In this document: positions 25,637-27,282 of the stretch, in pieces
How positions within the stretch are numbered: the first letter of the stretch is position 1
Layout: the number at the start of each line of letters is the position of its first letter
Source: Salinigranum halophilum
Lineage (GTDB): Archaea; Halobacteriota; Halobacteria; Halobacteriales; Haloferacaceae
Direction of reading: 5' to 3'
NCBI RefSeq assembly: GCF_007004735.1
Contig: NZ_SSNL01000009.1
Span: 62,001 to 126,000 of the forward strand
DNA: 64,000 nucleotides
Position numbers and translations under genes: made by a program
Notes under the pieces: generated by a model
The model's input: the letters and a program-made list of their open reading frames with translations, nothing else
Told to the model about the DNA's origin: nothing
Databases searched by the model: none

Positions 25637-25801
25637 ACACCTCTATCGATTTGTTGTGGAAGAGTCCACCAGACACCAGCGGCGCACCTTTATCGATTTG
25701 TTGTGGGAGAGTCCACCAAACACCAGCGACGCACCCCTATCGACTTGTTATCGGTGCCGAGAGAGCTAGACCGCTGCAGCACCCTCCTATCGATTTGTTC
25801 C
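25637..25801 (+). repeat. Family-E origin-like repeats (four copies, 47-nt tandem block)
   Basis: Copies of a motif near CACCCCTATCGATTTGTT start at 25637, 25684, 25731 and 25779. The first three are part of a 47-nt tandem unit that also carries GAGTCCACCA. All have the same orientation. Three more copies lie at 29214-29242 and, inverted, at 29493-29512 and 29698-29719. The layout (C-rich half plus a distinct half) resembles ORBs, yet no orc gene abuts both groups in the usual way. Confidence 0.75.
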
Positions 25802-26045
25802 GATGAGGAGCTACTGATTGATTTGAGCCCGAGCCACCGTCCGCAGTTCGTCCCCGTGGACGTCTTTCAGTCGGGAATCTTCCCGAAGCGTCTCGATAAT
25901 CGTGTTCGGGTCCTCCCCAAATGTGAACTCGAGATAACTCGCTCTTATGTAGAATTGCGGAAACCACCCGATAACGACACAATCAATGGCTGACTCGACA
26001 GATTCACCAGAGAGGGTGAGTGACCGAATGATGCCGAAGGTGTGA

Positions 26046-26079
26046 GCGGCCTGTTCCAAGCCCTGCTTGGACAGGCCGC
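26046..26079. other. Hairpin 1 in the IS1595 transposase gene
   Basis: 15-bp stem with one bulged T: GCGGCCTGT(T)CCAAGC pairs with GCTTGGACAGGCCGC around loop CCT. It encodes part of LSKQGLEQAA on the minus strand. Confidence 0.8.
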
Positions 26080-26226
26080 GGAACTTCCGAAGCCACGGTT
26101 GAACGAGCGAAAACAAGCACTCAGCCTGATTAATGTGGACGCCCCTTGGCGAAACATACCTCTCTTTGTGGACGACCGTTCGGTGGTCAAAATCAATCTG
26201 TCGGTATGCCTGGAGTCCGTCAGTCC

Positions 26227-26255
26227 AGACCTCTCCCAGCGGCTGGGAGAGGTCT
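26227..26255. other. Hairpin 2 in the IS1595 transposase gene
   Basis: Perfect 13-bp stem AGACCTCTCCCAG / CTGGGAGAGGTCT with loop CGG, inside codons for EDLSQPLGEV. Confidence 0.85.
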
Positions 26256-26400
26256 TCAGCCTCCTGAATCACTGGTTCAAGATCGCCTTCGTAGTCGATC
26301 CCACGTTGTCCGCGAATCACACGAAGCGAGTCGCGGCACGCCGCGACGAGCGTCAACTAATCACCGTGGCGGCCTCGCCAGCGTGATCGACCTGTCTGGG

Positions 26401-26439
26401 AAGAGCCGCCGCGGAACAGCCGTTCTCGCGGCGGCTCTT
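26401..26439. other. Hairpin 3 in the IS1595 transposase gene
   Basis: Perfect 13-bp stem AAGAGCCGCCGCG / CGCGGCGGCTCTT enclosing a smaller GAAC-AGCC-GTTC stem, inside codons for EPPRERLFRGGS. Confidence 0.85.
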
Positions 26440-26521
26440 GGCCTTTGTAGCCCGAACAGACTTCGCCAGATTCGTCAACTTGGGTGGGTCCAACGATGGC
26501 CTGATCGAGAAGTTCCCAAAC

Positions 26522-26557
26522 GACGTGGAAGCCGCGGTTCAGCGTGGCTTCCACGTC
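26522..26557. other. Hairpin 4 in the IS1595 transposase gene
   Basis: Perfect 12-bp stem GACGTGGAAGCC / GGCTTCCACGTC with a 12-nt loop, inside codons for EATLNRGFHVV. Confidence 0.8.
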
Positions 26558-26649
26558 TCGAATCGCCGTATAGACGGTTCTGTAGGCTCGCCCGAGAAAC
26601 GGGGCGATCTGGTTGACACTGAGCAACGTATCGGCGTAGAGTGTGAACG

Positions 26650-26684
26650 CGAGAAGCACCTCTCCCGCGGTGAGGTGCTTCTCG
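26650..26684. other. Hairpin 5 in the IS1595 transposase gene
   Basis: Perfect 13-bp stem CGAGAAGCACCTC / GAGGTGCTTCTCG with a 9-nt loop, inside codons for HEKHLTAGEVLLAF. Confidence 0.85.
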
Positions 26685-27027
26685 TGGAACGGCGTGCCGT
26701 AGATAAAAACCGGCTTAAAATTGCAGTCACGGCACCAGATTCGGTCGAGTTCTTCCCACGTGACGATGCTTTGCTGACCGCAGCGTGGACAGGACGTATT
26801 CTCCCAGAATTCCTTGAGTCGCCGCTCGATGCGGGCATCAAGCGGCTCTGTGCTGATCTTGACAACTCCTAGCTCAATCAGCTGCCGAAACATCCCACCG
26901 AACGCTGGCTGAGCAGAAGACATCTTGCCAGATTAGCGCCGGTTCAGTGTAATTATACGGGTTTTCCGCAGCTTTGCATAAGAGCGAAGATTGCGATTCA
27001 CGACTGTAGTCGCGAAGGGGGAGGACG

Positions 27028-27282
27028 CCTCGCTCAGACTGTATTTGATCCTAACGTCTAGGGTTCAAGACTCGGACAGGGACACCCCCCAGTCAGAGTG
27101 AAAAGAACGGGTTGTGAACCAGGGTACAATTTGGCGGAGGGGTCCCCTCGTTCAGAGTGTAAGTCCGTTAGCGTCAATGGCATAGGGCTGAAACGGAGAC
27201 ACCTCCAGTCAGAGTGAAAAGAACCACGAGAGCAGGCTGATATACAGTTTGTTATAGGGGACCCCTCATTCAGACTGAAAGC
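27028..27282. repeat. ORB-like repeats, family B, 3' side of orc copy 2
   Basis: The gap 26924-27287 has no gene. It holds copies of a motif near ACCCCTCATTCAGACTGAAA: 27079-27107, 27138-27162, 27195-27225 and 27256-27282, plus a weaker one near 27028-27050. All are in the same direction. The spacing of the clear copies is about 58 nt, nearly regular. Matching copies lie upstream of the orc gene, with one in the opposite direction. Confidence 0.8.

Follow-up and report, generated by a model that had tools for sequence, protein, structure and literature searches.

Introduction

Template switching between inverted repeats leaves a recognizable mark in yeast genes. It consists of the inversion of the spacer together with the homogenization of the arms, and inverted spacers were observed only where the arms exceeded 9 bp (PMC8604942). 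In RNA genes, template-switch mutations both create and maintain hairpins (PMC8794818). In chloroplast DNA, the small hairpin loops between short inverted repeats flip repeatedly, as in the genes described here. However, these small inversions are chiefly non-coding, and they are not known to occur several per protein gene, as is the case here.

We analysed a stretch of 64,000 nucleotides of Salinigranum halophilum DNA (hereafter, the window). It contains a degenerate insertion sequence (IS) whose transposase gene carries an array of long hairpins (Table 1). No earlier report of such arrays in haloarchaeal transposase genes was found in the open-access literature searched; subscription papers were outside this search.

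Table 1. Position of the element, its hairpins and the stems observed in Deinococcus radiodurans (window coordinates unless a locus is named).
Feature	Position	Strand	Remarks
IS1595-family insertion sequence (ISHsi3-like)	25940-26986	-	about 1047 bp, degenerate; delimited by the terminal inverted repeats and by aligning it with L002, a copy in the same genome at 85% identity
Inverted repeat, side of the transposase 3' end	25940-25963	.	CGCTCTTATGTAGAATTGCGGAAA; identical to the opposite end at 20 of 24 positions
Inverted repeat, side of the transposase 5' end	26963-26986	.	counterpart of the repeat at 25940-25963
Transposase pseudogene (DDE_Tnp_IS1595)	25941-26923	-	interrupted by an in-frame TAG (26357-26359) and shifted by one additional base near the 3' end
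Hairpin H5	26046-26079	.	15 pairs, one bulged base
Hairpin H2	26227-26255	.	14 bp, perfect; 1-nt loop, C on the coding strand here and G in other relatives
Imperfect palindrome	26323-26354	.	site of a perfect 12-bp seventh hairpin in relatives L039/L040
Hairpin H4	26401-26439	.	perfect stem of 13 bp; loop of 13 nt, exactly reverse-complementary to that of the paralog; right-arm extension unique to the window copy
Hairpin H3	26522-26557	.	perfect stem of 12 bp; inverted loop and a right-arm extension unique to the window copy
Hairpin H1	26650-26684	.	perfect stem of 13 bp; loop of 9 nt, in the opposite orientation to that of the paralog
Hairpin H6	26821-26846	.	stem of 12 bp, interrupted by one T.G mismatch here and perfect over 12 bp in most relatives; CC/GG loop flips
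D. radiodurans MP1 stems	L234: 7065, 19699, 22064; L236: 14416, 15861, 16848, 18265		

Results

The insertion sequence and its transposase

The window element has the features expected of an IS1595 member: the transposase domain, the terminal inverted repeats and a length of about 1 kb. Its transposase matches Pfam PF12762 above the cut-off (E = 6e-7). Both halves of the protein also match NCBIfam NF033547, each half alone remaining below the cut-off of that model. An earlier note, made without database searches, had assigned positions 25811-26923 to an IS1595-type coding region and considered the encoded protein normal. The assignment holds only in part. Positions 25811-25939 fall outside the IS, which proper spans 25940-26986. 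The protein is not normal in this copy, given the in-frame TAG and the extra base near the 3' end, which makes the reading frame overrun the end of the IS. The window copy is a pseudogene, a relic.

No 8-bp target site duplication is visible at the ends of the window element. Such duplications were found at intact close relatives, for example L042 (ATTACTCA). It is therefore most probable that the window copy lost its duplication, and not that the group lacks one. An intact paralog (L002, 325 aa) lies elsewhere on the same contig, with 85% nucleotide identity to the window IS. Its protein is 88% identical to that of ISHsi3. A further piece of this IS, 102 bp long and including hairpin H5, lies near the paralog (G000:C8:29146-29247).

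The window IS is flanked by TATCGAYTTGTT repeats and by CAGTCAGAGTG-like repeats, beside an orc1/cdc6 gene (window positions 25644-25800, 27033-27280 and 29225). These repeats and the gene probably mark a replication origin. An orc1/cdc6 gene is also present within about 2.5 kb at the paralog (L002, 82-1461) and at 16 of 80 related loci (e.g. L110, L111 and L112). This proximity suggests an insertion preference.

Hairpins inside the window gene

The ISHsi3-like gene of the window contains six hairpins, four with perfect stems of 12-14 bp and two near-perfect. The earlier note had listed five, with stems of 12-15 bp. All five are present where it placed them. The stem near 26241 is 14 bp long instead of the 13 bp reported, and the hairpin at 26821-26846 had been overlooked.

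This single gene holds four of the five perfect stems of at least 11 bp (loop up to 20 nt) in the entire 64-kb window. As a control, synonymous codons were permuted inside the gene, keeping the protein and the codon usage. In 1000 of these shuffles, stems of at least 11 bp averaged 0.038 and never exceeded 1, against 4 in the gene. For stems of at least 12 bp, the mean was 0.012, also against 4. The folding energies of the six hairpins range from -14 to -32 kcal/mol, and the whole gene has a folding z of -6.9. The hairpins are real and far above chance expectation. The earlier note had stated what would refute it: similar hairpin numbers in codon-preserving shuffles, or palindromes imposed on the homologues by conserved amino acids. 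Neither is the case.

Two clades of relatives have hairpins of their own. In L039/L040, the seventh hairpin, near gene position 573, is perfect; the sequence at the same site in the window is imperfect, as if a two-base change had perfected the stem. In L062/L065, an extra hairpin of 13-14 bp (GACTGTCTGGGAG) appears near gene position 390-400, and the other relatives lack it.

Conservation and covariation of the arms

Hairpins are found at the same six positions in relatives as distant as 58% protein identity. Among 52 distinct sequences, 96.5% of the arm cells are Watson-Crick paired, compared with 23-35% when the partners are slid. Likewise, compensatory cells number 77 in these sequences, against 4-16 with slid partners. 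The mean entropy at 4-fold degenerate sites is 0.24 bits in the arms and 1.17 bits outside them (p = 8e-11). This p value is only a guide, since the sites have a common ancestry.

A structured sense RNA should present covariation of paired bases and a tolerance of G.U above A.C. The first feature is met, and the second is not. Mismatches in the IS1595 set amount to 31 G.T and 35 A.C distinct cells. G.U is not favoured over A.C, which places the constraint on the DNA or on both RNA strands. Wobble-to-wobble pairs are likewise conserved, at 7 sites.

In 55 transposase genes less than 80% identical to each other, 141 perfect stems were found versus 17 helices with one mismatch. Stem lengths in these genes peak at 12 bp (48 observed, 0.27 expected). 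Loops of 5-7 nt accompany 47% of the stems, compared with 20% in shuffles. The hairpins are distributed along the gene, without concentration at the 5' end. An excess of A.C over G.T in the divergent genes (9 versus 1) was considered as a sign of selection on antisense RNA. It was dropped in view of the nearly equal counts in the IS1595 set.

Loop inversion

The arms of the window copy and of the paralog are nearly identical, and three loops (H1, H3 and H4) are inverted between them. On the coding strand, the H4 loop is AGAACGGCTGTTC in the window and GAACAGCCGTTCT in the paralog, which are exact reverse complements. The H1 loop is ACCGCGGGA in the window and TCCTGCGGT in the paralog; the H3 loop is ACGCTGAACCGC and GCGGTTCAGCGC, respectively.

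Relatives in other genomes present both loop orientations at five sites. These include a 1-nt loop (C/G) and a 2-nt loop (CC/GG). The family tree, built without the hairpin columns, requires a minimum of 11 orientation changes for H1, 8 for H2, 6 for H6, 3 for H3 and 2 for H4, about 30 flips. Some of the H2 and H6 flips rest on only one or two bases, and ordinary substitutions (transversions) might account for them. The H4 loop of L066, on the other hand, is exactly inverted with respect to L039/L040. Among eight copies in Natrinema gelatinilyticum, the H1 loop flipped once, and otherwise about 14 changes separate the copies. The loop flips of the IS1595 group thus include recent events.

Two of the flips in the window come with changes in the right arm. 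After the flipped H4, the window reads CTCTTCC, and nearly all other rows read CTC followed by G or A. The flipped H3 ends in CCACGTC, and that A is absent from the other rows. In both cases, the right-arm change reverse-complements the left flank and lengthens the stem. The resulting pairs are unique to the window: T-A at alignment positions 371-398 and A-T at 486-522. The coincidence of each flip with a unique right-arm extension is the footprint expected of a single template switch. One backward copying of left arm and loop would account for both the inversion and the extension; we consider this probable, although it is inferred from sequence alone. The pattern agrees with the template-switch marks known from yeast genes (PMC8604942) and RNA genes (PMC8794818).

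Distribution over transposase families

Perfect stems are frequent in the haloarchaeal double-strand DNA transposase families IS4/ISH8, IS5, IS630, ISH3, IS110 and IS1595, with about 2-4 stems per kb versus 0.1 elsewhere. Clusters of long stems in the flanking DNA of the relatives lie mostly within other transposase genes. Four annotated stretches of haloarchaeal plasmids, 200 kb in total, have 49 stems in their 21.3 kb of annotated transposase and TnpB genes and 18 in the remaining 178.7 kb. The families affected there are IS630, IS4, ISH3, IS5, IS110 and IS1595; the two annotated TnpB genes of these stretches have no stems. A set of 34 haloarchaeal IS4/IS5 and IS1595 genes has 117 stems versus 1.7 expected, and haloarchaeal IS630-type genes have 32 in 17.2 kb versus 0.15 expected. 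IS4/ISH8 genes also have covarying arms, as does a distant IS1595 group in which one loop occurs in both orientations.

Thirty IS200/IS605 TnpA genes gave only three stems, near the edges of cut stretches. Other archaea of this phylum provided 25 transposase genes belonging to the Pfam families of the IS4/IS5 and IS1595 set. None of these genes has a stem; many of them are less GC-rich, and a few are fragmentary. The bacterial controls gave three stems in 17.4 kb of transposase genes, all from Deinococcus radiodurans. This bacterial sampling is small; the Salinibacter stretch contains no transposase, and the pSymA stretch has no annotation.

In D. radiodurans MP1, the transposase genes (one of unspecified family) carry about one perfect stem of 11-13 bp each, above the local background (Table 1). 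Polyploidy alone was considered as the cause of the hairpins and is doubtful: the few transposase genes seen in Thermus and Synechocystis lack stems, although those of D. radiodurans have about one per gene.

Discussion

Template switching as the most probable mechanism

The best-supported mechanism is template switching in the course of DNA synthesis, which would both keep and reshape the hairpins in the DNA itself. We consider it likely, with its enzymatic steps being inferred. The growing strand would jump onto the complementary arm, copy back over the loop and then return to the original template. The outcome would be exactly complementary arms, an inverted loop and, at times, a longer arm. 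Three observations support this reading: the loops are inverted between close relatives, the arms change together, and two window flips come with one-sided extensions. The features of quasipalindrome correction are met, that is, perfectly complementary arms with multi-base or compensatory changes, and loop inversion. The earlier note proposed three explanations; the evidence supports the first, in which template switching repeatedly corrects the palindromes.

Template switching alone does not explain the distribution of the hairpins. It leaves unexplained that host genes, TnpB and IS200/IS605 TnpA of the same organisms have none. The wobble-to-wobble pairs would be free to drift if correction were neutral, yet they are conserved. 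The peak of stems at 12 bp and the bias of the loops also hint at selection on the hairpin itself.

Why these transposase genes are the ones affected remains unproven, and two candidates can be offered. Repeated repair synthesis through the element may concentrate the hairpins in these genes; one instance would be the repair of excision gaps in polyploid cells, with sister chromosomes as template. Double-strand DNA transposition would leave gaps, and polyploid haloarchaea would refill them from a sister copy; the element would then often be re-synthesized. Single-strand transposition of the IS200/IS605 type would not cause such re-synthesis. Both statements are our inference from known pathways. 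Selection for hairpins that damp transposase synthesis may be an added or an alternative cause of the concentration. The two accounts could well be compatible with each other.

Other explanations

The main rival is selection on RNA. Stable hairpins in the transposase mRNA, or in mRNA and antisense RNA, would restrain translation, and the loop flips would be tolerated by-products. The folding energies of the hairpins and of the whole gene agree with this, as does the preference for loops of 5-7 nt and stems of 12-13 bp. Halobacterium salinarum has transposase mRNAs in abundance; of its 33 mobilome proteins, however, just 4 were detected, and three of these were TnpB (PMC10134880), the type without hairpins in the present analysis. 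In addition, transposition of IS4 and ISH3 fell when the RNA chaperone SmAP1, to which the melting of hairpins is attributed, was lost (PMC10134880), and antisense RNAs to transposases are common in this species (PMC6523106). Nevertheless, G.U is not preferred over A.C, either in the IS1595 cells or in the one-mismatch helices (1 versus 9), unlike in ordinary sense-RNA structure. The hairpins spread along the gene instead of lying at its 5' end. IS200/IS605 TnpA lack them despite being transposases too, and the link from the literature is a correlation. On balance, we lean against this rival. The limitation of transposase synthesis by mRNA structure, second proposal of the earlier note, is not shown, although it is not ruled out either as a consequence of the hairpins or as the reason for their selection.

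Conserved amino acids and GC-rich codon usage could also be thought to impose the palindromes. Codon usage does set the sites where palindromes are possible, and 60% of the stems are in codon-to-codon register. This value equals that of the shuffles (59%), and the register was dismissed as a special feature. The stems vanish in shuffles that keep protein and codon usage, which rules out this explanation as a sufficient cause. Moreover, non-haloarchaeal members of the same families have no stems, and the synonymous sites in the arms are frozen. Practically nothing is left of this alternative. It is also very improbable that the hairpins are DNA sites for the transposase or for a site-specific recombinase. 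Conserved arms with inverting loops do resemble an invertible site. However, the six hairpins have no arm sequence in common, and the same feature occurs in unrelated transposase families of different sequence. The IS is already bounded by terminal repeats, and its intact relatives have 8-bp target duplications. A use of the hairpins in transposition, the third proposal, gains no support: the arms differ between hairpins and families, and the single-strand IS200/IS605 TnpA lack them.

Implications

Under template switching, a mutation process usually seen as rare, isolated events is here frequent enough to shape the whole coding sequence of one gene class. The frequency of flips in multi-copy IS elements offers a natural read-out of archaeal template switching. 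Trees and selection tests should take into account that the loops of homologues differ by inversion and not by a series of substitutions. If the hairpins do throttle translation, this could help to explain why haloarchaeal transposase mRNAs are abundant and their proteins hardly seen. A bolder reading is that unrelated haloarchaeal double-strand DNA transposase families convergently gained perfect intragenic hairpin arrays, which would add an undescribed level of control, or of evolution driven by repair, specific to this lineage. It could equally prove right or wrong.

Comparison with known systems

The window element shares with ISHsi3 and ISHla12 the DDE_Tnp_IS1595 domain, the length of about 1.05 kb, the terminal repeats and, in intact relatives, the 8-bp target duplication. 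It differs from them as a pseudogene without the duplication, and the non-haloarchaeal IS1595 members tested have no hairpins. The families affected by SmAP1 in H. salinarum, IS4 and ISH3, are among those with hairpins here. In their sections bearing on the topic, those studies (PMC10134880, PMC6523106) do not mention hairpins inside transposase reading frames.

The hairpins of RNA genes likewise show perfect stems, one-step compensatory changes and loop inversion (PMC8794818). That work concerns RNA genes, whereas the genes described here are protein-coding, belong to mobile elements and show no G.U preference. Finally, template switching at yeast inverted repeats likewise homogenizes arms and inverts spacers inside coding DNA (PMC8604942). 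There, 50 strains yielded 10 spacer inversions in their coding genes. The present transposase family alone has about 30, the hairpins number several in each gene, and one gene class is favoured.
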